Shown here: positions 6,263-29,668 of the stretch, in pieces
How positions within the stretch are numbered: the stretch's first letter is position 1
How the letters are laid out: every line of letters begins with the position of its first letter
From: an uncultured Clostridiaceae bacterium
GTDB taxonomy: Bacteria; Bacillota; Clostridia; TANB77; CAG-508
Assembly (NCBI GenBank): GCA_930990125.1
Contig: CAKNOI010000016.1
Span: 1-34,452 of the forward strand
Length of the DNA: 34,452 nt
Direction: 5' to 3'
Notes under the pieces: model-generated
Told to the model about the DNA's origin: nothing
The model's database searches: none
The model's input: only the letters and a program-made list of their open reading frames with translations
Translations under genes and position numbers: made by a program

Positions 6263-6353
6263 CAAAGGCACCTCCTATATTTTTTCATTTGCCCTAAACT
6301 GAGAAAAAGCAGAGTCTAACCTTTTTCTAAGTCTAAGGTACTTTGCAAGTATT

Positions 6354-6382
6354 ATTCTACTACAAACAAAGGCAAAAAGCAA
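6354..6382 (-). promoter_or_regulatory. possible proximal rpsO promoter
   Basis: Minus strand: TTGCTT (6377-6382), 17-base spacer, TAGAAT (6354-6359), about 90 bases before the rpsO start. Confidence 0.4.
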
Positions 6383-6507
6383 GCGTTTTTGTGAAATTTC
6401 CGTTTTTAGGAAATTTATTCTTTTTTCTCTCTTTTTGCTTCTCTTTTCTCTATTTCTTCTTGCTTTTTTTATTTGCTCACTTTTCTCTTTCTTTGATTAC
6501 TGAAGTC

Positions 6508-6535
6508 CTTCTATTTCAGAAGACTTTTTTCTTCG
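6508..6535 (+). terminator. isolated terminator-like hairpin upstream of mutS2
   Basis: AAGTC-C-TTCT, loop ATTTC, AGAA-GACTT, then TTTTC on the plus strand: a 9-bp stem with one bulged C. No plus-strand gene lies before it, so it could end a small RNA, block antisense transcription, or be chance. Confidence 0.35.
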
Positions 6536-6583
6536 CAAGGTTTATTTTCAATGTTCTTCTTCCACAGAAGTTCTTCCTTTCTT

Positions 6584-6613
6584 ATTCTATTACTAACTCT
6601 TCCTTTTTGTCAA
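6584..6613 (-). promoter_or_regulatory. possible distal rpsO promoter
   Basis: Minus strand: perfect TTGACA (6608-6613), 18-base spacer, TAGAAT (6584-6589). It would give rpsO a leader of more than 300 bases with no open frame in it. Confidence 0.45.
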
Positions 6614-6679
6614 CTACTTTTTTCTTTTTTCCAAGTTATTGTTTCATGCTAGGTACGCATTTTAAGTCAGCAATAGGTA

Positions 6680-6708
6680 TTGCTATTTTTCTTGTTTTGT
6701 GAGATAAT
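6680..6708 (+). promoter_or_regulatory. mutS2 promoter
   Basis: TTGCTA (6680-6685), 17-base spacer, GATAAT (6703-6708) preceded by TGA, an extended -10 element. The start codon is 30 bases downstream. Confidence 0.6.
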
Positions 6709-6737
6709 TACAAGCGTTACAAAGAAAGGTGTTTACC

Positions 6738-9116
6738 ATGGATGATAAAGAACTTATTACATTAGAATATGTTAAAATTATAGAAAATTTGGCTAGTTTT
6801 GCTTGTACTTATTTAGGGAAAGAGCTTTGTTTAGCGTTAAAGCCTAGCAATAACAAGGAGGAAGTCCAAAGAGAACTTGCTATTACTACGGAAATGACAG
6901 AGCTTTTTACGCATATAGGAAATGCTCCTATTGCCGAAATTGCTCCTATTATGCTTTCTTTAAAGAAATTGGAGAGTAATTTAACTCTTTCTGCGAAAGA
7001 GTTATTGGATATTTCTGCTATTTTAAAACTTGCTAGAATATTAAAAACCTATTTCTTTTATGAAGAAGACGAAAAAATGCAAACTACTTTTCCTTATCTT
7101 TACCCGTATTTTTCTTCTTTGTACACCAACCAAGGCATAGAACATCGCATTTTTGTTAGTATTTTAGATGAAGATACCATTTCGGATGATGCTTCTCCTG
7201 CTTTAAAGGCAATTCGTAACAATATTAGGAAAGCGGAAACAGAGATTAAAGAAAAGCTAAGTGGTATGATTCATTCTGCAAGTTTTTCTAAGTATTTGCA
7301 AGAACCGGTTGTTACCATTCGTAGTGACCGTTTTGTTCTTCCGGTAAAAGAAGAGTACCGCTCTATGGTAAAGGGATTTATTCATGATATGTCTGCTAGT
7401 GGTTCTACAGTATTTATGGAGCCTACTTCTGTTTTTGAGTTAAATAATAAAATTGCAAGTTTAAAAGTAGAAGAAAATATAGAAATAGGAAAAATTTTAG
7501 AAGAATTATCCCTTTTATTTGTTCCTATTTTAGCAGAAATAAAGCAAAATGTTGAGACCATTGGAAAATTAGACCTATATTCTGCCAAAGCCTTATATGC
7601 AAAAGAATTGCAAGCAACAAGCCCTACACTTTCTGCCACCAAAAAAATTGTACTTAAAAAAGCAAGACATCCTTTGCTTGCCAAAGATACGGTTGTTCCT
7701 ATTGATATTGCACTTGGAAAAGATTATCGCTGTTTGGTAATTACCGGTCCTAACACTGGTGGTAAAACAGTTACCCTAAAAACCGTTGGTCTTCTTTGCT
7801 TAATGGCTTGCGCAGGATTACATATTCCTGCAAACGAAGGAAGTAGTATTTATGTGTTCGACCATATTTATGCCGATATTGGGGATGAACAAAGCATTGA
7901 AGCATCCCTTAGTACCTTTTCTTCCCATATGGTCAATATTTCAAGTATTGTAAAGGAAGCTACCTCAAACAGCCTTGTATTATTAGATGAACTAGGTTCT
8001 GGTACAGACCCACAAGAAGGAAGTAGTCTTGCTATTAGCATTTTAGACTATTTGTTTCAAAAAGGAGCCTTACTTCTTGCTACTACCCATTATCCAGAAA
8101 TGAAACACTATGCACTTGTTACCAAAGGCTTTGAAAATGCAAGCTGTGAATTTGATGTAGAAAAACTAAAACCTACTTATAAATTACTTATTGGAATTCC
8201 TGGTAAAAGCAATGCTTTTGCTATTAGTAAGAGATTAGGGTTATTAAATGAAATTTTAGAAAATGCCAAACAATATTTAACACCAGATTCTATTTCTATA
8301 GAAGAACTGCTAAAAGAAATTTATGATAATAAATTAAAAATAGAAAAAGAAAAGGAAGAAATAGAAAAAAATAAAATACAAATTGAAAATTTACGTAAAT
8401 CATTAGAAAAAGAAGATGCTAGAGTAAAAGAAAAGGAGCAGGCTATTTTAGAAAAGGCCAAAGAACAAGCAAGAGATATGTTACAGTCTGCTAAAAAAAC
8501 GGTAGCAGAATCTATTAAAGAATTAAACTCTATTACTATAGATTCAGAGGCTTCTAAAAAAGCAAATCAGATTCGAAACACACTAAATGAAAGTATGAAA
8601 AACATACACCCACAAGTTACCTCTTCTGCCTCTTATGTAACTTCTTTAACCAAACAAGAAATACAAGTAGGAATGATGGTTTCTATTCCTCATTTAAAAC
8701 AAACGGGAACCATTCTTTCTCTTCCTAATAAAGAGGAACAAGTAACTGTGCAAATAGAAAATATGAAAATGCAACTACCTTTGCAGTCACTTACTAAATT
8801 GGATAAACCAATGAAAAAAGAAAGCACTTCTACTTCTGTTAAGGCAAATTCTTCTTTTTTAAAATCCAAAACAGCAACTTCTGAAATTAACGTTATTGGA
8901 CTTACTGTAGAAGAAGCCACCTTGGTAGTAGATAAATTTTTAGACGATGCGGCACTTTCTCATCTAAGTACAGTACGCATTGTACACGGAAAAGGAACCG
9001 GCGCTTTAAGAACTGGAATACATCAGTTTTTAAAAAGACATCCTCATGTAGCCTCCTACCGCATTGGTAGTTTTGGCGAAGGAGAAATGGGTGTAACTAT
9101 TGTAGAAATCAAATAA
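6738..9116 (+). CDS. mutS2: endonuclease MutS2
   Basis: A 792-residue MutS-family ATPase lacking the mismatch-recognition domain; family members act on recombination intermediates and on collided ribosomes. The core and clamp fill the N-terminal third. The ATPase has Walker A GPNTGGKT (337-344), Walker B LVLLDELGSGTDP and the TTHYPEMK switch. A long charged coiled coil (about 515-620) leads to a KOW-like segment and a C-terminal Smr domain (about 713-792) with HGKGTGALR (750-758). The Smr LDLR motif reads INVIG (717-721), so its usual Asp is Asn; this may be a clostridial variant or reduced nuclease activity. The start ATG is 8 bases after AAAGG; the frame opens three codons earlier at a GTG overlapping that site. 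Confidence 0.95.
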   Translation: MDDKELITLEYVKIIENLASFACTYLGKELCLALKPSNNKEEVQRELAITTEMTELFTHIGNAPIAEIAPIMLSLKKLESNLTLSAKELLDISAILKLARILKTYFFYEEDEKMQTTFPYLYPYFSSLYTNQGIEHRIFVSILDEDTISDDASPALKAIRNNIRKAETEIKEKLSGMIHSASFSKYLQEPVVTIRSDRFVLPVKEEYRSMVKGFIHDMSASGSTVFMEPTSVFELNNKIASLKVEENIEIGKILEELSLLFVPILAEIKQNVETIGKLDLYSAKALYAKELQATSPTLSATKKIVLKKARHPLLAKDTVVPIDIALGKDYRCLVITGPNTGGKTVTLKTVGLLCLMACAGLHIPANEGSSIYVFDHIYADIGDEQSIEASLSTFSSHMVNISSIVKEATSNSLVLLDELGSGTDPQEGSSLAISILDYLFQKGALLLATTHYPEMKHYALVTKGFENASCEFDVEKLKPTYKLLIGIPGKSNAFAISKRLGLLNEILENAKQYLTPDSISIEELLKEIYDNKLKIEKEKEEIEKNKIQIENLRKSLEKEDARVKEKEQAILEKAKEQARDMLQSAKKTVAESIKELNSITIDSEASKKANQIRNTLNESMKNIHPQVTSSASYVTSLTKQEIQVGMMVSIPHLKQTGTILSLPNKEEQVTVQIENMKMQLPLQSLTKLDKPMKKESTSTSVKANSSFLKSKTATSEINVIGLTVEEATLVVDKFLDDAALSHLSTVRIVHGKGTGALRTGIHQFLKRHPHVASYRIGSFGEGEMGVTIVEIK

Positions 9117-9117
9117 A

Positions 9118-9161
9118 GGCTGTACCAATTGTAAAAACAATTGTGTACCTATGGTACAGCC
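9118..9161 (+). terminator. inverted repeat after mutS2, possible terminator or processing hairpin
   Basis: Outer arms GGCTGTACCA (9118-9127) and TGGTACAGCC (9152-9161) pair perfectly, and inside them AATTGT and ACAATT form a second stem. It starts two bases after the mutS2 stop. The following T-run is interrupted (CACCACTTTTATTT), and the tRNA-Leu gene begins 13 bases later with no clear promoter, so some read-through from mutS2 seems likely. Confidence 0.5.
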
Positions 9162-9174
9162 ACCACTTTTATTT

Positions 9175-9256
9175 GTCGATGTGGCGGAATGGCAGACGCG
9201 CAAGATTCAGGATCTTGTGGGAAACCGTGTGGGTTCGACTCCCATCATCGACACCA
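9175..9256 (+). tRNA. tRNA-Leu (anticodon CAG)
   Basis: Cloverleaf read by eye: acceptor GTCGATG/CATCGAC fully paired, anticodon stem CAAGA/TCTTG with loop TTCAGGA (CAG, reads CUG), a long class II variable region, T arm GTGGG-TTCGACT-CCCAT, discriminator A and encoded CCA. No promoter of its own is visible. Confidence 0.95.
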
Positions 9257-9283
9257 ATTATTTTAATAAAGGAGGAATTAGCT

Positions 9284-9667
9284 ATGGCCATTGATATAAT
9301 GTACGAAAGTATGGATTTTTATCAAAAATATAAATTAGGAATAAATTTAATAGAATATACATATGTAATTTTGGAATTAGTACTTCTTTCTTTAATTCTA
9401 GTAATACCAATTATCATTATTTATAAAAAAGTAAAGCTAAAAAATAAGCCCAATGACAATAGTAACTATGTTATTAAAACTCTGAAATCAGCAGAATTTT
9501 TATTTGTCTTTCTTCTCTTTCTTTGTTACATAATTGACAACGTTTTAAATAATTATGCGCCATCTCTGCCATATCCTGATAGCTTATATCCTGATATTTT
9601 CATTATCTTAATTTCATTTGTAACTATTGGAGTAGTATTGTATAAACTGTTAAAAAAACAACACTAA
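9284..9667 (+). CDS. small membrane protein with three transmembrane helices
   Basis: A 127-residue protein I do not recognise. Hydrophobic segments at about 22-45, 65-85 and 98-120 predict three membrane helices joined by a basic loop (KKVKLKNKPN). There is no signal peptide of the cleaved type. The open frame runs back through the tRNA-Leu gene, but the ATG at 9284 is the start because AAAGGAGG lies 8 bases before it. It lies 27 bases after the tRNA CCA end, so it is probably cotranscribed with, and released by processing of, tRNA-Leu, and it has its own terminator at 9688-9732. Function unknown. Confidence 0.7.
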   Translation: MAIDIMYESMDFYQKYKLGINLIEYTYVILELVLLSLILVIPIIIIYKKVKLKNKPNDNSNYVIKTLKSAEFLFVFLLFLCYIIDNVLNNYAPSLPYPDSLYPDIFIILISFVTIGVVLYKLLKKQH

Positions 9668-9687
9668 TTTTTATAAAATAAAAAAAT

Positions 9688-9732
9688 AAGAGATACTTAT
9701 AATAGAATAAAGAGTATCTCTTTTGATTTTTT
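9688..9732 (+). terminator. terminator of the small membrane protein gene
   Basis: AAGAGATACT (9688-9697) pairs with AGTATCTCTT (9713-9722), followed by TTTTGATTTTTT. Confidence 0.85.
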
Positions 9733-9790
9733 ACAATATATGACTGGGTTCTAATTAGTATAACACCTATTATATAATTGTCACCCTAAC

Positions 9791-10579
9791 CTATTCTTCT
9801 TCTGTACTTCCTGCTAAGGTATTTGGGTCAATTCCGTAGGTTTCGTAAAACCATTCGGAATAATTAAATGCTTTATGTGTTTCTGGAAGTCCATAGTCTA
9901 CTCCAAAAGTTTCTACTGTCATGCTTTCTATTACAGGTGGATTTACTGGTTTGTCTAATCCTTCTTCTGCTGTTTCGTCTCTTGTTACTACTTCTACATT
10001 AGAGATAGCATCTACTACTTCCATTCCTTCTATTACTTTACCAAATGCTGCATACAGACCATCTAAAGAGGTTTGTTCTGCTGTGGTAATAAAGAATTGG
10101 GAACCTGCTGAATTGTATCCTTCCTCTGTTAAACCAATACTACTATAATCTGCTCTTGCCATAGAGATAACTCCTCTTTCGTGATGGATGGTATTGTTTA
10201 CTTTGTTTGCAATAAATTCTCCATTAATAGAATATGCGGTATCATCTCCGTCATCTTTTAAATCTTTTAGGGTTGGAGAACCTGTTCCGTCTCCATTTTT
10301 ATCTCCTCCTTGTATCATAAAATCTGGTATGGTACGATGGAAGGTTAATCCATTATAAAATCCTCTTTGAATTAAGGCAATAAAGTTAGCAACCGTGTTT
10401 GGTGCTTGTTCTGGGTATAACTCTATTTTAACCGTTCCCATATCTTTTACATTCATGGTAACAATTGGATTTTTTACTTCCATGGTAGCATTTTGGTAAA
10501 TACCATATATTACATAGCCAATTGCTCCTAGTAAAATAATACATAATAAAATCATGATAATAAGTTTTGTTTTTTTCAT
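9791..10579 (-). CDS. membrane-anchored or secreted cyclophilin-type peptidyl-prolyl isomerase
   Basis: A 262-residue cyclophilin (EC 5.2.1.8) that speeds cis-trans isomerisation of proline bonds, placed outside the membrane by an N-terminal hydrophobic helix (about 6-28) without a lipobox. The cyclophilin domain starts near residue 38 and shows GTVKIELYPEQAPNTVANF, FHRTIPDFMIQGGD (active-site R and Q), MAR and GSQFFITT segments. It carries insertions typical of bacterial secreted forms and an acidic tail. The start is set by AGAGGAAGAAGAAA upstream. It follows the disA operon on the same strand, but a promoter at 10613-10641 suggests independent expression. Likely role: folding of exported proteins. 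Confidence 0.9.
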   Translation of the reverse strand: MKKTKLIIMILLCIILLGAIGYVIYGIYQNATMEVKNPIVTMNVKDMGTVKIELYPEQAPNTVANFIALIQRGFYNGLTFHRTIPDFMIQGGDKNGDGTGSPTLKDLKDDGDDTAYSINGEFIANKVNNTIHHERGVISMARADYSSIGLTEEGYNSAGSQFFITTAEQTSLDGLYAAFGKVIEGMEVVDAISNVEVVTRDETAEEGLDKPVNPPVIESMTVETFGVDYGLPETHKAFNYSEWFYETYGIDPNTLAGSTEEE

Positions 10580-10612
10580 TTTCTTCTTCCTCTCTTTTTA
10601 TTTGCTTGTTTT

Positions 10613-10641
10613 AGTTTATACTTTATTTTTGTGTTTGTCAA
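10613..10641 (-). promoter_or_regulatory. promoter of the cyclophilin gene
   Basis: Minus strand: TTGACA (10636-10641), 17-base spacer, TAAACT (10613-10618); an overlapping TATAAA gives a 15-base spacer. Confidence 0.5.
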
Positions 10642-10653
10642 CAGAAACTATTA

Positions 10654-11835
10654 CTATGGCGCTAATGTATATGGATTTTCTTCGCTTCCATCGCCAGATG
10701 TTATTTTGACTCCAGATTTCAGAAGTAATACAGGACGTAAACCGGCACTTACCTTATATAAAGTAGTTGCTACATCACCGCTAAATATATCGCATAAGTA
10801 TCGGTAGTGTAATTGATGGTTTACATCCACACAACGTACAGCAAAACCATTATAACTACCTAAATCATTTACAAATCTTGAAGCCAAAAAGTATTGTTTA
10901 CCTATATTATATATAACTAGGTTATTCATCTGATTCCAATCTTCTACATAGTTATTGTCTGCACTCTTGAACATATTATTAACCCCTTCAATAGAACTAC
11001 TATTATATATACCTGCTCCATCAAAACTTGGATTATTGGGTACACTTCCTACACATCTTGCCTCTTCTGCTATTCCATCATTTTTCTTTCTATACTTCTC
11101 TGCTTCTTGATTTAATGTAGCTATTACACTATTATAAGTATCTTTACATTTATTAAAAGCATCATCATTATAATCTGTACTTGGTACATCCTCTCCCAAT
11201 GACACATCTTCCACCGTATCTGCCGTTATTATCTGAATCCCATAACTACTATATTTTGCGTTTTCCGGTCCATATAGTACAATACACTTCTGTTTCGTGC
11301 CATTTGCATCTTCATACCAAACATAGTCGCCTTCTTTTAGGGTACTTTCTATTGTTGCTATTTCTTGTACGTTATACGACTCGCTTGGGAAGTCTTCTAG
11401 TTTGTAGCACATTTTCCCTGCGTCTTCTATTCCATTTACGGAAATAACTTCTCTTGTTTTTAGATTAATTAATACCGATTGATTTACGTTTTCAATACCC
11501 ATTTGTTGTAAGTCACTTACTCGGTAATACTTAAAATCTATTATCTCTTCTGCTGTTTTTCCTTGTAAGGGTCCTTTTACTAGCTTAGTCATTGTTTCTG
11601 TGTCTAGTCTTGATACTTCTATTCCTATAGCATCATAGGAAGTATCGCCTTGCTTTTGTTTTTCTACAATAACATTTACTTCCGATTGTACTATTTTTAG
11701 TTCTTGTATAAATGCCATTACTTTATTGGAGTCTATAATACTTCTTCCAGAAGAAATAGCGGTTCCTGCTAGGATAGACATTACTAATACCGTAATTACT
11801 AATGCTACTAAGGTAATTCCTTTTTCTTGTTTCAT
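10654..11835 (-). CDS. type IV pilin-like protein (prepilin N-terminus)
   Basis: A 393-residue surface protein with a class III (prepilin) leader: short basic start MKQEKG, cleavage after G6, then a hydrophobic helix ITLVALVITVLVMSIL. The Glu normally at position 5 of mature pilins is absent (Ala in ITLVA). After an amphipathic stretch (about 30-60) comes a large extracellular domain ending in LRPVLLLKSGVKITSGDG and ENPYTL, a C-terminus I associate with many clostridial surface proteins. Prepilin peptidase or pilus assembly genes are not in the window. It starts 22 bases after disA with GAAGGG upstream and no promoter, so it is the last gene of the murB-to-disA string. A minor pseudopilin or surface adhesin is possible. 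Confidence 0.7.
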   Translation of the reverse strand: MKQEKGITLVALVITVLVMSILAGTAISSGRSIIDSNKVMAFIQELKIVQSEVNVIVEKQKQGDTSYDAIGIEVSRLDTETMTKLVKGPLQGKTAEEIIDFKYYRVSDLQQMGIENVNQSVLINLKTREVISVNGIEDAGKMCYKLEDFPSESYNVQEIATIESTLKEGDYVWYEDANGTKQKCIVLYGPENAKYSSYGIQIITADTVEDVSLGEDVPSTDYNDDAFNKCKDTYNSVIATLNQEAEKYRKKNDGIAEEARCVGSVPNNPSFDGAGIYNSSSIEGVNNMFKSADNNYVEDWNQMNNLVIYNIGKQYFLASRFVNDLGSYNGFAVRCVDVNHQLHYRYLCDIFSGDVATTLYKVSAGLRPVLLLKSGVKITSGDGSEENPYTLAP

Positions 11836-14641: not shown

Positions 14642-15365
14642 CGAAATTGCCTTTCCGAGTGTCCTTTTTTCCTAGGGCATCGGTTACATCAAAAATAACG
14701 GCTTCTATTTTTTTATTGCATAAGGTATCTATATCTATTTTCTGTATCGTACCATTTTTTCCTGCATATTCGATTACTTTTCTTAATTCGTTTATCATTT
14801 CTTGCATATTGGTACCACAGTTTTCTAAAAAATAGCGTAAAGTGCTATCATCTGCTGTTACCCCATAGGCTTTACAAATTCCTTTTATTCTAGTCAAAAT
14901 AGCTGGCAACTTTTGTTCTTCAAAAGGACAAATGGTTGCATTCATTTTTTCTAATTGTTTGTACAAACTGTTTTTTTCTATTTCTTCTTCTACCCAAACC
15001 AGTACATTATACGATAACACCATTTCTTGCTCATTTTGCAAATACTTTATTAATTTTTCTCTAGCATCTGCTAATGCAGGATTTTTTCTTTTTCCTTCTT
15101 TTTTTAATAATCCTGTATTTTTTATCACAATCATTTTTTTAGCATATCCAAAGGCAGGTGTTTCTAAATTTGGAATTAACTCTGCTATTGTATTTTCTTC
15201 TATTACAATATAGTTAATACCTGGAACCACTTCTCCAAATGCTTTTTTTATCTTTTTAAAGCAACTTTCTAATAAAAACTTTTCTTCTCCATATAGCACA
15301 TAACAATTATGAAGAATTCCTTGTTTTAGTTCTTTTTCTAATGCTTCTATGGTAATTGTTGGCAT
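14601..15365 (-). CDS. holA: DNA polymerase III delta subunit, N-terminal part (frameshifted)
   Basis: Residues 1 to about 238 are the ATPase-like domains I and II of HolA (YVLYGEEKFLLE near the start, NPAL and LVWVEEE further on, NMQEMINELRKVIEYAG). The Walker A site is degenerate, as is normal for delta. After K238 (codon 14652-14654) the frame diverges: the last 16 residues are unlike HolA, and the true continuation is in the +1 frame. One extra base, either in the run of six A (14665-14670) or in the GG at 14650-14651, explains it. The ATG follows AAGGAGG. It lies between ruvC and radA. HolA is normally essential, so a sequencing or assembly error is the simplest account. Confidence 0.85.
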   Translation of the reverse strand: MPTITIEALEKELKQGILHNCYVLYGEEKFLLESCFKKIKKAFGEVVPGINYIVIEENTIAELIPNLETPAFGYAKKMIVIKNTGLLKKEGKRKNPALADAREKLIKYLQNEQEMVLSYNVLVWVEEEIEKNSLYKQLEKMNATICPFEEQKLPAILTRIKGICKAYGVTADDSTLRYFLENCGTNMQEMINELRKVIEYAGKNGTIQKIDIDTLCNKKIEAVIFDVTDALGKKDTRKGNFGVTTINIPERANS

Positions 15366-15389
15366 TTGGCGACCTCCTTTTTTGGTTTT

Positions 15390-15875
15390 TTATAATTTTT
15401 GTGAAAATTTAGCAGAATGGGCATGGCATATTGCTGCTGCCATGCTATCTGTTGTGTCATCTAGTTTTGGTAGTTTATCTACTCCTAAAATTGTTTTTAC
15501 CATTTTTTGTACTTGTATTTTATCAGCCCTGCCATATCCTACTACTGCTTGTTTAATTTGTAATGGTGTATATTCAAAAGTATCTATTTGCATTTTCCTT
15601 GCTGCTACTAAGATAACACCTCTTGCTTGTGCTACATTAATAGCTGTTTTTGCATTGTTGTTAAAAAATAATTCTTCTACCGAAATAGCATCTGGCTGAT
15701 AGTCTGTAATAATTTGTGTTAAATCATCAAATAGTTTTTCCAAACGTAATGGAAAAGAGGTATTGGCAGGTGTTGTAATAGCACCTGATGTAATTAAATG
15801 AAATTTATTTCCTATATAATCAATAACACTATATCCCGTAATAGCAAACCCTGGATCTACACCTAATATTCTCAT
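15390..15875 (-). CDS. ruvC: Holliday junction resolvase RuvC
   Basis: A 161-residue dimeric endonuclease that cuts Holliday junctions with RuvAB. The RNase H-like fold carries the four acidic active-site residues D7, E67, D140 and D143 (ILGVDPG, SVEELF, LDDTTDSMAAAICH). Its ATG overlaps the stop of the upstream debranching-enzyme gene (ATGA), and the AGGAGG site lies in that gene's last codons, so translational coupling is likely. ruvA and ruvB are not in the window. Confidence 0.95.
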   Translation of the reverse strand: MRILGVDPGFAITGYSVIDYIGNKFHLITSGAITTPANTSFPLRLEKLFDDLTQIITDYQPDAISVEELFFNNNAKTAINVAQARGVILVAARKMQIDTFEYTPLQIKQAVVGYGRADKIQVQKMVKTILGVDKLPKLDDTTDSMAAAICHAHSAKFSQKL

Positions 15876-17905
15876 TTTTCCTCCTGATGGTATGTATAAA
15901 TAATGCGTAGTACTTCAGCAGTACTCCATGCCTGAAAGGCAGCTCCTTTTGGCAAATATGGTGCTTTAGAATCATATAATTCTGAAATCCCCCCAACAGA
16001 ACCTTCCTCGTAAAATGCTTTTCGCATTACTTTTTCTGTTTTTTCACAAAAACTTTTGTATTTTTCTTCTTGTTCTTTCTTTTTATTTTTATCTTTTTCT
16101 GCTTTTAAAATTGCTCGCATACTATTAAAATACAGTCCTAGTAACCATGGCCAAGTAATCCCTTGGTGATAACTCATATCTCTTTTAAAAGAATCCCCCT
16201 CGTATACTTCTATGTAATCTTTTTCTCCTTTTGCTAATGTTTTTAATCCATAAGGAGTAAGCAGTTTTTTGGTAACCGTTTCTAGCATTTCTTTTGCTCT
16301 ATCGGATGCTGGATCCATTACAGGATAGGTTAAGCTTAATGCAAATAATTGGTTTGGTCTTATTTTGCTATCTCCTAATACGTCGTATAAACATTTTCTT
16401 CGTGCTTGGTAGAATTTTTCTTCAAAAGATTTTTTACACTTTGTCGCCATTTGTTCATATATTTTTGCATCTTCTTTGGTAGAAAAGATAAGAGTTAATT
16501 CTTGTAAAATTTTTAGTGCATTATACCACATACTATTTATTTCTACTGCTTTTCCATTTCTTGGGGTAACTGCAAAATCTCCATATTTTACATCCATCCA
16601 TGTGTTTTGTGTTGTTTCTGTTCCAGAAGATAATAGATAATCTTTATCTAAATAAATAGCATTATTATCATAATCTATACCTTTACGATAAGCATCAATA
16701 ATGCGAACCAAAACCGGATACATTTTTTCTTTTACAAATTTAAAATCGGAAGTATATTCTAAATATTTATGTACTGCTTCAAATAATAGTAAAGAACTAT
16801 CTACACTATTGTATAGTGGTCTATTATCATAACCAGAGTACCCATTTGGTACTAAACCATATTTTACATCTCGAATCATGGTAAGCAATACTTCTTTTGC
16901 TATTTCATATCGCTTGGTAACTAGGAGTAATCCTTCAAAAGAAATTAAGGTGTCTCTTCCCCAGTCTAAGAACCAATGGTATCCAGCTATCACAGTGTGT
17001 AGTCCAAAAGTAGGACGTTTTACAATAAAATTGTCCGTTGCAATAATAAAATCTTTCATCCATTCATTCCACTGCTTGTCCTCTTTTTTATAAGCCAGCT
17101 CAGAATCGTATAAAATTTCATTAATACGAATAATTTCTCTATCTATTACTTCCTTTGTATTTATTTCTTCAATGTTTTCTTCCATAGAAAGAATTAGTGA
17201 AATTTCTTTTTGTTCGTTTGGCTTAATAGTAACTTCAAACACTCCTGGCACTGCATGGTTTTCTTCTGGATAAAATCCTCTTTTTTCTTCTTCTAGATAA
17301 TACATGTTATAGAATTGATCTTCTAAATGCTGAATATAGGTTCCTTCTGAAATATGCATATAAAGCGGAGTTTGTGAATTTTGGTCCACAACTATTTTTA
17401 CTTTTTTATCTTTTACTTCTTGCCTTATATTAAAATGATGGTTGGTACTCATAGAATGAAAATCTCTAAAATTTACCAAAGGTGCTAGTTTTAATGTAGT
17501 TTCTGCATCTTGGTTTTGAATACGATATAATAAACATACTGTATTTTTACCATAGTCCATGCAAATTAATTTTTTTATGGTAATTCCTTCTACTTGGTAT
17601 GTAAAAATAGGAATATAGTCTTTTTCAAAGCTTTCTAAGTATTTATATCCTTCTGCTACATAATTTTTGCAAATATTAGTATAAATAGGATATTCTTTTC
17701 CACCTGTTACTACACTTTCATCTATTTTAGAAACCACCACTTTTCTGTTTCCTGGTGCAGATAATGCCGCTACTAATAATCCATGATATTTTCTGGTATT
17801 GGCTCCTACAATAGTAGAAGAAGCATAGCCTCCTATTCCATTTGTAATAAGCCATTCTTTTGTTAACCCATTTTCTAAATTTAGTTCCTTTTTTTCAAAT
17901 TTCAT
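15872..17905 (-). CDS. glycogen debranching enzyme (amylo-alpha-1,6-glucosidase type)
   Basis: A 677-residue cytoplasmic enzyme of the archaeal/bacterial GDE family (GH133-like), which hydrolyses alpha-1,6 branch glucosyl residues of glycogen. The N-terminal beta-sandwich domain (about 1-275) opens with the family signature EWLITNGIGGYASST and TRKYHGLLVA. The C-terminal (alpha/alpha)6-barrel shows HWFLDWGRDTLIS (310-322), NSVDSSLLLF and MSYHQGITWPWLLG. Length is normal. The start follows AAGGAGGAAACAA. It lies 33 bases behind yvcK and overlaps ruvC by four bases. Other glycogen genes are not in the window. Its pairing with the gluconeogenesis-linked YvcK is suggestive. Confidence 0.93.
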   Translation of the reverse strand: MKFEKKELNLENGLTKEWLITNGIGGYASSTIVGANTRKYHGLLVAALSAPGNRKVVVSKIDESVVTGGKEYPIYTNICKNYVAEGYKYLESFEKDYIPIFTYQVEGITIKKLICMDYGKNTVCLLYRIQNQDAETTLKLAPLVNFRDFHSMSTNHHFNIRQEVKDKKVKIVVDQNSQTPLYMHISEGTYIQHLEDQFYNMYYLEEEKRGFYPEENHAVPGVFEVTIKPNEQKEISLILSMEENIEEINTKEVIDREIIRINEILYDSELAYKKEDKQWNEWMKDFIIATDNFIVKRPTFGLHTVIAGYHWFLDWGRDTLISFEGLLLVTKRYEIAKEVLLTMIRDVKYGLVPNGYSGYDNRPLYNSVDSSLLLFEAVHKYLEYTSDFKFVKEKMYPVLVRIIDAYRKGIDYDNNAIYLDKDYLLSSGTETTQNTWMDVKYGDFAVTPRNGKAVEINSMWYNALKILQELTLIFSTKEDAKIYEQMATKCKKSFEEKFYQARRKCLYDVLGDSKIRPNQLFALSLTYPVMDPASDRAKEMLETVTKKLLTPYGLKTLAKGEKDYIEVYEGDSFKRDMSYHQGITWPWLLGLYFNSMRAILKAEKDKNKKKEQEEKYKSFCEKTEKVMRKAFYEEGSVGGISELYDSKAPYLPKGAAFQAWSTAEVLRIIYTYHQEEK

Positions 17906-23277: not shown

Positions 23278-24006
23278 TTAATCTGCTGATGCAAAAATAA
23301 CAATTCTTTGGTTGGTATAATCGGTACAGGTTAATAATACAATTTCTCTTTTTCCATCTGTATCTCTTTCTAAATAAGATGCATCTTCTGGGGTTGTTTC
23401 GTATTTGTTATAAATAGTATAAGTAACTTTATTACCGCTTTCATCTGTAATGTATACTTTATCTCCTGCCTCTAATTTTTTATTGTTTGAGAAAAACAAT
23501 CCATTACGATAATTATGTCCTTCTATTACCGTATTTCCCACTTGGTTTAGCCCTCCTGTTGTATGTAAAATAGCTACACCTTTTTCAATAGAATCTCTGG
23601 TAGCTTTACTGTAAATTGGATATTCACAATCTGTTTTTGGAATTTCTATTTTTCCTACAGTATAGTATGGTTTTTTCGAATTGTTACTAGATCCTGTATT
23701 AGAAGAACCTGTATTTCCTCCTGTTACTACATTGCTAACCGTATTGGTAGTAGGAATAGTAATATTGGTATCGGTATTTGTAGTAGGAACATTTGTTACT
23801 CCATTGGATACCATATTTGTTTTTGTGTTATTCACAATTGTTTTATCAAATTCATTTAAAGCTGCATCTGCTTCTTTTGTTACATAATATTTTCGAATAA
23901 TATCATACCCTAAAAATCCTAATAATCCTACTATTAAAATAATAGCTATGATTAAAAGGATTGTTAAAAATTTACTATATTGACCACCTAATTTATCTTT
24001 AAACAT
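23278..24006 (-). CDS. sortase with long Thr/Asn-rich linker
   Basis: A 242-residue membrane-anchored transpeptidase that attaches sorting-signal proteins to the cell wall or to one another. One helix (about 13-35) is followed by a low-complexity T/N/S/V linker (about 58-112) and a sortase domain (about 113-242). Catalytic residues are H164 (EGHNYR), C227 (LLTCTDY) and R234 (NQRIVIF). The compact domain and TCTDYTNQR motif suggest the class D or E group, not class A. The start follows AGAGGTGGAACT, with an extended -10 TGTTATAAT at 24039-24047. No LPXTG-type sorting signal is found in the window, so its substrates are elsewhere. Confidence 0.88.
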   Translation of the reverse strand: MFKDKLGGQYSKFLTILLIIAIILIVGLLGFLGYDIIRKYYVTKEADAALNEFDKTIVNNTKTNMVSNGVTNVPTTNTDTNITIPTTNTVSNVVTGGNTGSSNTGSSNNSKKPYYTVGKIEIPKTDCEYPIYSKATRDSIEKGVAILHTTGGLNQVGNTVIEGHNYRNGLFFSNNKKLEAGDKVYITDESGNKVTYTIYNKYETTPEDASYLERDTDGKREIVLLTCTDYTNQRIVIFASAD

Positions 24007-25363: not shown

Positions 25364-26437
25364 TTACCTTTCTGATACCGTTTCTGGCATATTTTCATAG
25401 AGTGGAACAATAAAATGTAATGAAGCATCTACTGTATTTGAGCTTTCATAAATTGCTCGCATATTGCTTGCTTCCGATTGTGGGGCTAACAAATTTTGCA
25501 TATATTGATGCGCATATAGGCTTCCATCTTGATTTACCACATCAAATTTTTGCAAATATAAAGTATTTTGTCCTACATTAATATAGGCATCTTTAATAAA
25601 TTCCACACCACCTATTAAAGCTTTTTCTATACTATCCCAACCTTGACTATAGGCATATTGTGCTGCATTTTCTAAAATTTCTTCTCTAGAATTTCCACTA
25701 GCACCAATATTAAACACATTGTATACCAAACTTTCTTTGTATTCATAACCTCTTGATAGAGTAGTCCCTTCTCTGCCTTGTTCTTGAATTAACCTAGAAG
25801 CAATAAAATAGGGATCTACATTTGCTTTTTTCCCAGCTTGTAATAATGCCTCAGCAATAGCTTCTCCCTCTAAGAAAGAACCTTGCGTAATACTTCCTAA
25901 CCCCTCTGCAGTTTGTGCACCTTCTACGTAAATTAATTCTGCAAATTGAAAAACATTTTCTTCTTTTAATATATTCCTTGGGTCCATTTGATAGGCTATT
26001 GCTTTATCCGAAGCACAGAGCCATGTTCCATTATCAAAAGTCTTATCCTTGTCTATTTCACATCTCCAATCTTCTGGATATTCAGTGGAATCTGGAATTA
26101 AATTTAAAGGATATGCCGTATTATCTTTGTGTCCTTCGTTTTTGATTACTTCAGACCAATCTAATCTTGTATACAGTAAGGTAAACTCCCAGTTTGGATG
26201 CCTTTCTTGCAATGCATCTAGTAATTCTTTGTATCCAGGATATTTACTTTCGTTTATATTTTTTCCATTATATGCAACATACTTCTGTTTCTTATTTTCG
26301 TTACTTATCCAAACAAAAATCACGCAACAAATAAGGACAATAACAAGAACAATAGCCGTTATTATCTTTACTTTTTTAGGAATCCTTTGTATTACATTTT
26401 TTATAAATAGTATAAAATTTTGTATTTTTTCTTTCAT
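25364..26437 (-). CDS. membrane-anchored N-acetylglucosaminidase (GH73-like peptidoglycan hydrolase)
   Basis: A 357-residue cell-wall hydrolase predicted to cleave the GlcNAc-MurNAc bond of peptidoglycan. One N-terminal helix (about 23-45) anchors or exports it. The next region (SKYPGYKELLDALQ...HPNWEFTLLYT, about 64-90) is the substrate-binding domain often paired with LytD-type glucosaminidases. The catalytic domain (about 165-330) shows QMDPRNILKEENVFQF, SRLIQEQGREGTTLSRG (likely catalytic Glu) and YNVFNIGA. The start follows GAAAGGAAA. It begins 70 bases downstream of the divergent tRNA-Gly on the same strand with no strong promoter between, so cotranscription from the tRNA promoter is possible. 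Activity is inferred from family. Confidence 0.85.
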   Translation of the reverse strand: MKEKIQNFILFIKNVIQRIPKKVKIITAIVLVIVLICCVIFVWISNENKKQKYVAYNGKNINESKYPGYKELLDALQERHPNWEFTLLYTRLDWSEVIKNEGHKDNTAYPLNLIPDSTEYPEDWRCEIDKDKTFDNGTWLCASDKAIAYQMDPRNILKEENVFQFAELIYVEGAQTAEGLGSITQGSFLEGEAIAEALLQAGKKANVDPYFIASRLIQEQGREGTTLSRGYEYKESLVYNVFNIGASGNSREEILENAAQYAYSQGWDSIEKALIGGVEFIKDAYINVGQNTLYLQKFDVVNQDGSLYAHQYMQNLLAPQSEASNMRAIYESSNTVDASLHFIVPLYENMPETVSER

Positions 26438-26507: not shown

Positions 26508-26581
<74 letters not shown>

Positions 26582-26798: not shown

Positions 26799-29192
26799 TT
26801 ACTTTGTTACCGTTACCGTGCCACCCTGAGATGATGTAGTATGTTTTAAATTATCTATTACATAAGAATAATACATTCTAATTCTTGCGGTTCCAGGACC
26901 TACTGCCGTTACGTTACCATTGTCATCTACCGTGGCCACTTCTTCATTAGTACTTCTCCAATATCTTTCCTCATAAGCTGCGTTAGATGGTGTTACCGTA
27001 TACTCCATTTTTTGCTTTTGACCTACTTTTAACGTTACATCTTTTACTACTATATCATCTGGTTTTACTCCTGTTTTTAAGGTAAATGACTTTGATATTC
27101 CATTTACTTTTACTGTAATAGTTGTTGTTCCTACTCCTACTACGGAAACATTTCCATCTTTATCTATGGTTGCCACATTTTTATTACTAGAGGTATAGGT
27201 TGGTTTATCTGTAGTACCATATGGGAATAGTCGTATTCTTAAGCTAAAAGTTTCTCCTACTCCTCCTTGTTCTTTTTCTCTTATCCAAAAACTGGTAGCC
27301 GGAACTGTTCCTTCTGTTATACCTGTTTTATCTTGATAATATGCTACTCCTTTAAATTCTGACCATTTATAGTCATCGTATTTGGTAGAAGTACATGGGC
27401 GTAATTCATTTTTTTTGATTAGCATTTCTTCATCACTTTTTAAGAACCATGTTCTATCCACATCTCCATATGCATAATAGTCACTACCTTCGCAATCTAC
27501 ATGATACCACTGACCATCTATTTTTGCTAAACTCCAATGATGGTTTCCTGAACCATGTGCCGCATCTACTTGATGTTGATTTATCATGTCTGTTTCAATT
27601 CCTACATAAGCACATAGGGTATTAAATGCAGAGGATACCCCAATACAGTCTCCCATACCAGATAATAGTGTATCTTTATAATATCCCCATGCTACATCAT
27701 ATTCAGAATTAGATACTTCTCCTCTTTCATCATAAGCAGTATGCTCACTTCTCATAAAGTTAGAGCAAACATAATCGTGAATAACAAGTGCTTTTTCTGC
27801 TTGTGACATGTCATTTGTGATATATTTTTTTACTACATTTTTACAATGTTCATCAATTTCTTTTAATGTTTCTGTATAAGGATCTATAACGTCAATAGCA
27901 TAGCTTTTCTTTTGTAACAATGCATCTTCTAGCTCGTCAGTGGTTCTTACAATTGTTTTTCCTGTAGCTAGTTTGGTTTCACTATTTTTGTAATTTATGC
28001 TAGAACGATACTCTGGCCATTCCACACCATAATATTTAGTAGATGTAGAAGTATTATCGGATACCGGGGTATAGAAGAATTGTACATGTCCTTCCCAAAA
28101 TCCATCTTCTAACTGTTCTGTGTTTCGTAAGAAGAAATATCTTCTCACTTTGTTTTTTCCCTCTACTTGAGATATATAACTATCTGCTCCGCAAGAAACG
28201 TAATATATTTCTCCATCTATTGTTACTTCATTAATAGCATTTTGACCATAATTAGCATATCTATCTCTTTTTATTTCTGATGGAATTCCTGCAATTCCTA
28301 AAAGGCAAGTATAAGTATTGGCAAAACCTAATTGGTTCATGGTTCCACCTAAATTGCAGATATTGCTTTCTTTACTATTTGTTTCGCAAATATCTTCTTC
28401 ATAATTTAACTTTGTTCCTGTAACCAAATAATCATGTAATACCAATGCTTTGGTAGCTTCTGACATATCCTCTGTACAATATTTTGCTACTACATCTTGT
28501 AATTTTTTGTAGTATGTAGTTATTTCTTTGTAATTGGAAGCTGATGAGTCAAATTCTAATTTGGTATTGCATTGTCCTAATTGTGTATACAAATCACTAT
28601 AAGAAGATATGGTTGCTGTTCTATTACGTGATTGTGTAATATCTGTTTTACCCAATCTGTATTTTATAATAGCTAACGCATCAGCAGAAGATGGTACTGC
28701 ATCTTTATCACGAGTTACTTTAGTAATTCTTCCTGCTTCTATACCATACTCATTTGGTATTTTCACTTTTCCCGTTTTATTTTTCACAATAGCAAGTGCA
28801 TCAGAAGCTGTAATATTTCCATCTCCATTAATATCTCCATATAGCACTAAAGTAATAGTATCTAATACATAATCCCATTGTTGTACTACTTTTAATGTAC
28901 AGCCTGTTCCCATTTTAGCAGAACCTGTAAGTTCTTCTCCCTTTTGATTATATGCTTTTATTTTAAAAGCACTATTGTATAAATTTAAAGACATATTAGA
29001 AAGAATTGTCTCTGCTGTAACATCCTTTGCATCCAAATTAGCTAAAATTTTATTGTCTTCTTCATAAATTTTGTACTTTGTTGTTTTAAAATAGTTCATT
29101 GTATTCGTAGATGCCATAGAAATATTAGAAAACGCAATCATCATAAGCATAACTGCAATTCCTAATATGAAACAAATTTTACATTTTTTCAC
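26799..29192 (-). CDS. secreted dockerin/transglutaminase-like/bacterial Ig-like protein
   Basis: A 797-residue exported protein. Signal peptide about 1-27. A dockerin-like domain (about 117-185) has two calcium loops (DINGDGNITASDALAIVK and a second ending SSADALAIIKYRLG). Two transglutaminase-like domains follow, each opening with a related segment (KALVLHDYL at 248, KALVIHDYV at 467). The second has a full triad, C516, H551 or H552, and D566. The first keeps C296, but the His and Asp positions read N318 and S333, so it is probably inactive. Two Ig-like (BIG2) domains (about 648-708, 715-797) end the protein. The start is a GTG with AAGGGGGG upstream. Likely a surface peptidase or crosslinking enzyme; the dockerin partner is not in the window. 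Confidence 0.85.
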   Translation of the reverse strand: MKKCKICFILGIAVMLMMIAFSNISMASTNTMNYFKTTKYKIYEEDNKILANLDAKDVTAETILSNMSLNLYNSAFKIKAYNQKGEELTGSAKMGTGCTLKVVQQWDYVLDTITLVLYGDINGDGNITASDALAIVKNKTGKVKIPNEYGIEAGRITKVTRDKDAVPSSADALAIIKYRLGKTDITQSRNRTATISSYSDLYTQLGQCNTKLEFDSSASNYKEITTYYKKLQDVVAKYCTEDMSEATKALVLHDYLVTGTKLNYEEDICETNSKESNICNLGGTMNQLGFANTYTCLLGIAGIPSEIKRDRYANYGQNAINEVTIDGEIYYVSCGADSYISQVEGKNKVRRYFFLRNTEQLEDGFWEGHVQFFYTPVSDNTSTSTKYYGVEWPEYRSSINYKNSETKLATGKTIVRTTDELEDALLQKKSYAIDVIDPYTETLKEIDEHCKNVVKKYITNDMSQAEKALVIHDYVCSNFMRSEHTAYDERGEVSNSEYDVAWGYYKDTLLSGMGDCIGVSSAFNTLCAYVGIETDMINQHQVDAAHGSGNHHWSLAKIDGQWYHVDCEGSDYYAYGDVDRTWFLKSDEEMLIKKNELRPCTSTKYDDYKWSEFKGVAYYQDKTGITEGTVPATSFWIREKEQGGVGETFSLRIRLFPYGTTDKPTYTSSNKNVATIDKDGNVSVVGVGTTTITVKVNGISKSFTLKTGVKPDDIVVKDVTLKVGQKQKMEYTVTPSNAAYEERYWRSTNEEVATVDDNGNVTAVGPGTARIRMYYSYVIDNLKHTTSSQGGTVTVTK

Positions 29193-29459: not shown

Positions 29460-29533
<74 letters not shown>

Positions 29534-29594: not shown

Positions 29595-29668
<74 letters not shown>

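Follow-up and report, generated by a model that had tools for sequence, protein, structure and literature searches.

The closest described systems belong to Ruminococcus flavefaciens. According to excerpts of the relevant reports, group 4b of strain FD-1 includes transglutaminase-like (TGL-like) dockerin proteins, ORF01263-01266, beside the LRR-dockerin protein ORF01267 (PMC2930009), and RflaF_05439 combines tandem NlpC/P60 cysteine-peptidase modules with a C-terminal, ScaE-binding XDoc (PMC3573020). The strain 17 version of RflaF_05439 has Ser for the catalytic Cys in its first module (PMC3573020). ScaE is described as a protein with one cohesin that is attached by sortase (PMC5301203). Cohesin-dockerin systems without a plant-fibre role are represented, in the portions available, by the Limousia mucinolysome (PMC12997984) and by scaffoldin-containing non-cellulolytic bacteria (PMC11557425); the word 'transglutaminase' is absent from the texts of both. 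Within the accessible part of the open-licence literature on dockerins and transglutaminases, no report was seen to describe the protein layout presented here, and the open-licence literature gave no match for a transglutaminase-like pseudoenzyme or for the Streptococcus TglA transglutaminase.

The window analyzed here, a stretch of DNA of 34,452 nucleotides, is contig C16 of a host genome (G000) of 1.38 Mb in 53 contigs that is 97.9% complete. A single open frame with a GTG start on the minus strand (26799..29192) encodes a protein of 797 aa, which agrees with the two-lobed transglutaminase-like protein described at this place in the initial annotation. Its parts, all given below on the minus strand, are arranged in the order signal peptide, X-like module, dockerin, lobe 1, lobe 2, and two Big_2 domains. 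The signal peptide (about residues 1-29; 29106..29192) was judged by eye from the hydrophobic N-terminus, and Pfam detects two Big_2 domains, one Transglut_core, and one sub-cut-off Dockerin_1 at residues 118-138. The Big_2 Ig-like domains (27069..27296 and 26802..27068) are seen both as Pfam matches and in the AlphaFold model, the full-length model being poor (mean pLDDT 53.9, pTM 0.33). A role as anchors, previously proposed for the Ig-like domains, finds no support in the C-terminus, where a sorting signal and a membrane helix are both absent, leaving the protein without a visible anchor of its own; the second Big_2 is moreover missing in the paralogue on contig C1 (TGLa).

With moderate confidence, the protein is read here as a wall-docked secreted TGL cysteine enzyme in which a dead lobe 1 would act as a platform, lobe 2 would be live, and the X-dockerin would sit on the cohesin of a protein encoded on contig C1. 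Like ORF01263-01266, it is secreted, TGL-like, equipped with a dockerin, and grouped with LRR-dockerin proteins. In contrast with FD-1, where the dockerin is C-terminal and the cellulosome large, its dockerin is N-terminal, follows an X-like module, and is accompanied by single cohesins only. The excerpted text mentions no dead lobe for the FD-1 TGL-like dockerin proteins, whereas the window protein has one (PMC2930009).

Lobe 2 (residues 420-640; 27273..27935) is the TGL domain of active type. Transglut_core (PF01841) spans residues 453-567 with 42.6 bits against a cut-off of 23, and the full triad that had been assigned to this lobe is present as the nucleophile C516 (27645..27647), H551 (27540..27542), and D566 (27495..27497). 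The catalytic columns were read from an alignment that combines eight lobes, two from each family member, with 32 other Clostridia TGL domains; the four members, which come from two genomes in all, are the window protein (copy b), both copies of genome G040 from another genus (a and b), and the C1 paralogue (G000 a). All three residues are invariant in 4/4 second lobes and in 32/32 other TGL domains, the latter count being biased toward active domains because the comparison set was drawn from further searches and from loci whose matches to a tandem TGL protein of genome G672 lie chiefly in the active half of that protein. Two of the 32 domains are identical (L121 and L122), and two entries were removed before counting as duplicates of other places (L115 of L080, L130 of L078). 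Lobe 2 is probably a thiol enzyme, either a protease, an amidase, or an acyl transferase, and the evidence does not single out a protease over a crosslinker. The sole NCBIfam match of the protein, at window positions 27363-27851 (residues 448-610), is to the mycoplasma 'MAG6410 family transglutaminase-related lipoprotein' with an E of 8.6e-11, far under the cut-off.

Lobe 1 (residues 192-400; 27993..28619) is a TGL pseudoenzyme that, as judged from the alignment, has none of the three catalytic residues. The initial annotation had correctly noted Asn in place of the His and Ser in place of the Asp, which are N318 (28239..28241) and S333 (28194..28196), but its statement that the lobe keeps its Cys is contradicted by the nucleophile column, which holds Q287 (28332..28334); the lobe is thus more dead than had been claimed. 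In the order window b, G040 b, G040 a, and G000 a, the first lobes have Q, Q, D, and T in the Cys column, N, N, N, and a gap in the His column, and S, S, S, and F in the Asp column. In both models, Q287 begins a helix, the one that bears the nucleophile in active TGL domains. The hhalign comparison of the two lobes is gapped beyond the nucleophile and would set T284, rather than Q287, opposite C516, an alternative that was set aside; the alignment of lobe 1 to the 32 TGL domains is ungapped at this point and pairs the Cys with Q287, and under either alignment Cys is absent from the site. C296 (28305..28307) was rejected as a nucleophile, as it lies off the active-site position, nine residues past the nucleophile site on the same helix, and the site itself holds Q287. 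Its column contains Leu in 19 of the 32 other domains and otherwise Arg, Met, Ile, Ala, or Glu, with Thr in the four second lobes and Ser in the G040 a first lobe. A C296 mutant, one of the activity tests suggested earlier, would be uninformative because the dead lobe has already lost its nucleophile Cys.

An alternative active site within lobe 1 is very improbable. Five residues that could contribute to one (C239, H253, C334, D326, and D337) do not vary among the first lobes of the four members, but H253 belongs to an HDY motif found across other TGL domains and hence is no replacement, C334 corresponds to C567, which adjoins the active-site Asp of lobe 2, and neither C239 nor C334 is at the start of the catalytic helix. 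A close precedent for the arrangement is RflaF_05439, which shares two tandem papain-like modules with an X-dockerin and a complete second module; the excerpted description gives it NlpC/P60 modules, the first of which keeps its His, whereas the window protein has TGL lobes and has lost all three residues from the first (PMC3573020).

Despite the loss of its triad, lobe 1 is still a TGL domain by sequence comparison, with a match that exceeds chance. Alignment by hhalign to the 32 other TGL domains gave a probability of 98.6% (E 6.7e-16) and alignment to lobe 2 gave 98.2% (E 3.6e-14), while the best of 50 column shuffles used as a control reached 3.8%. Pfam returned 0 families for residues 192-400 at E up to 1. 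An AF2 model of the lobe built from three sequences is of middling quality (mean pLDDT 61.1, pTM 0.67); its top VIA match is S. pyogenes TglA (9crn; Z 8.6, rmsd 4.3, 152 aligned), and the TGase 4xz7_B also matches (Z 7.7, rmsd 4.2, 121 aligned). The lower VIA rows include human transglutaminases, factor XIII, and arylamine N-acetyltransferases. Also among the VIA matches is erythrocyte protein 4.2, a relative of transglutaminases that is not known to be active. Foldseek found no match for the model at E up to 0.001, and its top rows are TGL or cysteine-protease entries, the best being 3isr_A (E 4.5e-3).

Both lobes consist of a TGL core and a tail (TSTKY..WPE.., conserved as TSTKY..W.E). A tree of the eight family lobes, lobe 1 of the tandem protein at L080, and other TGL domains places the four first lobes in one clade and the four second lobes in another, and joins the two clades, each of these groupings with a support of 100. 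The simplest reading of the tree is that the lobes arose by duplication inside the gene, that the triad was lost in the first copy, and that the gene then split into a and b. An ancestral TGL domain would have been duplicated together with its own C-terminal tail, the first copy losing all three catalytic residues before the gene duplication that gave the a and b paralogues, and the second copy keeping Cys516-His551-Asp566. The tandem TGL protein of G672 (L080:5693-7993) resembles the family in having a first lobe without Cys and His, which are Ser and Gly, and a complete second lobe, the Asp of its first lobe being kept. As this first lobe lies outside the family first-lobe clade, its loss looks independent, and a dead and live TGL tandem has probably arisen more than once.

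Between the window and G040 b copies, the lobe 1 core is identical at 85/115 positions (74%) and the lobe 2 core at 97/130 (75%); in the remaining pairs, the values are 47-62% for lobe 1 and 55-63% for lobe 2. A core conserved as well as that of the live lobe argues for maintenance, though the residues of the dead site drift, and lobe 1 is probably a maintained pseudoenzyme. A less favored explanation, which we regard as doubtful, is that lobe 1 is either a structural spacer or a copy left over from the duplication and now decaying, without a binding role, lobe 2 alone being functional. The variation of the lost-site residues among the four members is what a freely drifting site would display, the first-lobe clade has a long stem (1.22 substitutions per site), and a third copy in the same genome (C6:23445-24053, or L026:5446-6054, minus strand), which immediately follows an ABC transporter gene, has already been truncated at its 5' end to a remnant holding only the lobe 2 tail and two Ig domains. 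Set against this are the equal conservation of the two cores across genera and the retention of lobe 1 in 4/4 full-length members.

Between the signal peptide and lobe 1 are an X-like module (about residues 40-117; 28842..29075) and a dockerin (residues 118-186; 28635..28841), the latter in agreement with the N-terminal dockerin noted earlier. Taken together (residues 41-190), they have counterparts in two LRR proteins encoded by the host genome, at E 4e-25 and 2e-23, and this similarity is also the basis for delimiting the X-like module. The Dockerin_1 (PF00404) score of the window protein is 21.6 bits in one scan and 24.8 in another, with a cut-off of 22.9, and the three relatives score 27.5, 26.6, and 24.1; by phmmer, residues 117-183 match the solved dockerin 4uyq (E 0.0065). 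The Dockerin_1 motif alone proves little, since 9/14 control genomes match it at E up to 1, two of them above the cut-off. The host genome has 10 Dockerin_1 places.

The initial annotation had named missing calcium loops as evidence against its dockerin, and the two loops give different answers: only the first of the two canonical loops of a type I dockerin is present. The first (residues 120-131, with D120, N122, D124, and D131; 28800..28835) is intact and invariant in 4/4 members. The second (residues 160-171; 28680..28715) is degenerate, with T/D/D/D in the window protein; the three relatives have T at position 1, Q or K at 3, and N, A, or G at 5. Acidic residues at positions 1, 3, and 5 are thus lacking in 3/4 members, while the window protein has T-x-D-x-D. 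The conserved form of this loop is TR....P.S.D, and it is five residues longer than in the C11/C12 dockerins of the same genome. This replaced-loop class is common to the four TGL proteins and three LRR proteins, in which it is C-terminal and in which first-loop positions 3 and 5 are also non-acidic. The window dockerin is 53-59% identical to the LRR dockerins and 27-33% identical to those of C11/C12. Given the degenerate second loop and the non-acidic first-loop positions of the LRR proteins, binding could differ from that of classic cohesin-dockerin pairs.

A search of the host genome for cohesins, proposed earlier, found three matches in three separate frames, all with sorting-type C-termini (IPQAG, LPKTG, and LPKTG), and a sortase gene is present beside two of the three. 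One of the proteins (C1:61.6-62.3 kb) has a single cohesin (25.9 bits; cut-off 24.1) and ends in IPQAG, a hydrophobic stretch, and a basic tail, as recognized by eye, LPXTG profiles all being below cut-off. It is flanked by a sortase in the adjoining gene (89.7 bits), two LRR proteins of the replaced-loop dockerin class, a polytopic membrane protein that looks O-antigen-ligase-like by eye, and TGLa, which is 48% identical to the window protein. In G040, which has a full-length relative 62% identical to the window protein, both paralogues occur in one cluster with the membrane protein, LRR proteins, a sortase, and an IPQAG cohesin, and additionally with an Amidase_3-dockerin protein and another protein with a dockerin-like C-terminus. 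The C1 and G040 cohesin proteins are 47% identical, and the assignment of the latter is based on this identity, as Pfam makes no direct call on it. The G040 membrane protein (L031:5667-7332) is split into two overlapping frames, compared with one in G000, which reflects a frameshift or an assembly error.

The shared dockerin class, the paralogue in the C1 cluster, and the conserved cluster in G040 lead us to infer that the window protein, although encoded on a different contig (C16) from its presumed partner, most likely docks on the C1 cohesin via its X-dockerin. The docking proposed in the initial annotation is supported in this respect, with the amendment that the partner would be a single-cohesin anchor of sortase type and not a multi-cohesin scaffold: the host genome, at its stated completeness, has single cohesins only and no multi-cohesin scaffoldin. 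A second interpretation, which we consider rather unlikely, is that the dockerin-like segment is a stabilizing EF-hand-like module that does not bind cohesin, the protein being released or held otherwise. The second loop, degenerate in 4/4 members, the sub-cut-off score in one scan, and the matches in control genomes are all compatible with such a module; the fact that TGL and LRR proteins with one shared dockerin class cluster with cohesin and sortase in two genera speaks against it, as does the occurrence of cohesins in 162/195 family genomes compared with 1/14 controls. In comparison with ScaE, the C1 protein likewise has one cohesin, a sorting signal, and predicted surface X-dockerin clients; it differs, as far as ScaE is covered by the excerpt, in having IPQAG instead of LPXTG, in a multi-enzyme scaffoldin not being seen, and in its binding being a prediction (PMC5301203).

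Other components of the docking repertoire are distributed over the genome. A sortase gene of 242 aa (PF04203, 91.3 bits) is located near the TGL gene (23278..24006, minus strand). No GH domain was found in the dockerin proteins put to Pfam, which cover part of the 10 Dockerin_1 places. X-dockerins occur on an SH3-containing protein and on N-acetylmuramoyl-L-alanine amidases (L025:3740-5470, 6334-7488; L031:144-1385), so that wall hydrolases seem to be docked too. A second cluster (L023:4169-8665, 8686-11436, 15285-16076) encodes large Ig-repeat proteins that bear another dockerin class, together with an LPKTG cohesin; a sortase gene was not seen in the stretch read. The gene downstream of the TGL gene (window 25364-26437) has no Pfam family over cut-off; relatives were found in 21/31 genomes searched, the host included, and those in the host carry dockerins or X-like modules.

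The TGL gene is surrounded by tRNA-Gly(tcc) genes, one downstream (26508-26581) and two upstream (29460-29533 and 29595-29668); in G040, the cohesin gene is followed by a tRNA-Gly(tcc), and TGLb is closely preceded by a tRNA-Thr. A tRNA-linked insertion of the TGL gene is possible. A dedicated insertion site was set aside because no empty site was found, the surroundings of three orthologues of the neighbor gene containing no fmt, def, or priA.

The prevalence of the components differs widely. Whole-protein relatives were found in 2/390 genomes of the family, with scoring limited to two candidates per genome, and two-lobe relatives in 2/385 genomes of the order, which are the same two genomes. 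The search for proteins of the same layout, also suggested earlier, yields four full-length members, from two genomes. Cohesins are present in 38/39 genera of the family, and 16 of the best 20 rows fall in frames between 184 and 329 aa long, similar to the anchors found in the host genome. On these sequence counts, the docking system is widespread in the family and the TGL client rare, and a family-wide non-cellulosomal docking system seems likely. The mucinolysome and the systems of non-cellulolytic bacteria are similar in their sortase-type or membrane-bound single-cohesin anchors, and differ, in the portions available, by having larger scaffoldins (PMC12997984, PMC11557425). Each part of the window protein has known relatives; the combination and the commonness of cohesins in the family look new. 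The protein is set apart by its N-terminal X-dockerin with a replaced loop, the complete loss of the lobe 1 triad, and the lack of a multi-cohesin scaffoldin.

In the proposed mechanism, the X-like module and dockerin would bind the single cohesin of the C1 sortase-type surface protein, as XDoc binds ScaE in R. flavefaciens, and lobe 2 would cleave cell-surface peptides or proteins or transfer acyl groups on them. The role envisaged for lobe 1 is that of a non-catalytic platform, either to position lobe 2 or to hold the peptide, substrate binding by this lobe being a guess. A broader and distinctly speculative extension, to which we give little weight, is a plug-in system of family-wide sortase-attached single cohesins and replaced-loop dockerin clients, in which the pseudo-TGL lobe would capture a surface or client protein, such as a co-clustered LRR protein, and present it to the active lobe for crosslinking or trimming, thereby building or remodelling a protein coat rather than digesting polymers. 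With a dead and a live twin from one duplication in four members, the protein offers a clean paired case for the role of a pseudo-transglutaminase lobe, and the replaced-loop dockerin class could yield a new, small, orthogonal binding pair. For the family as a whole, whose genomes are roughly 1 to 2 Mb, cohesin-dockerin docking seems to be in use throughout.
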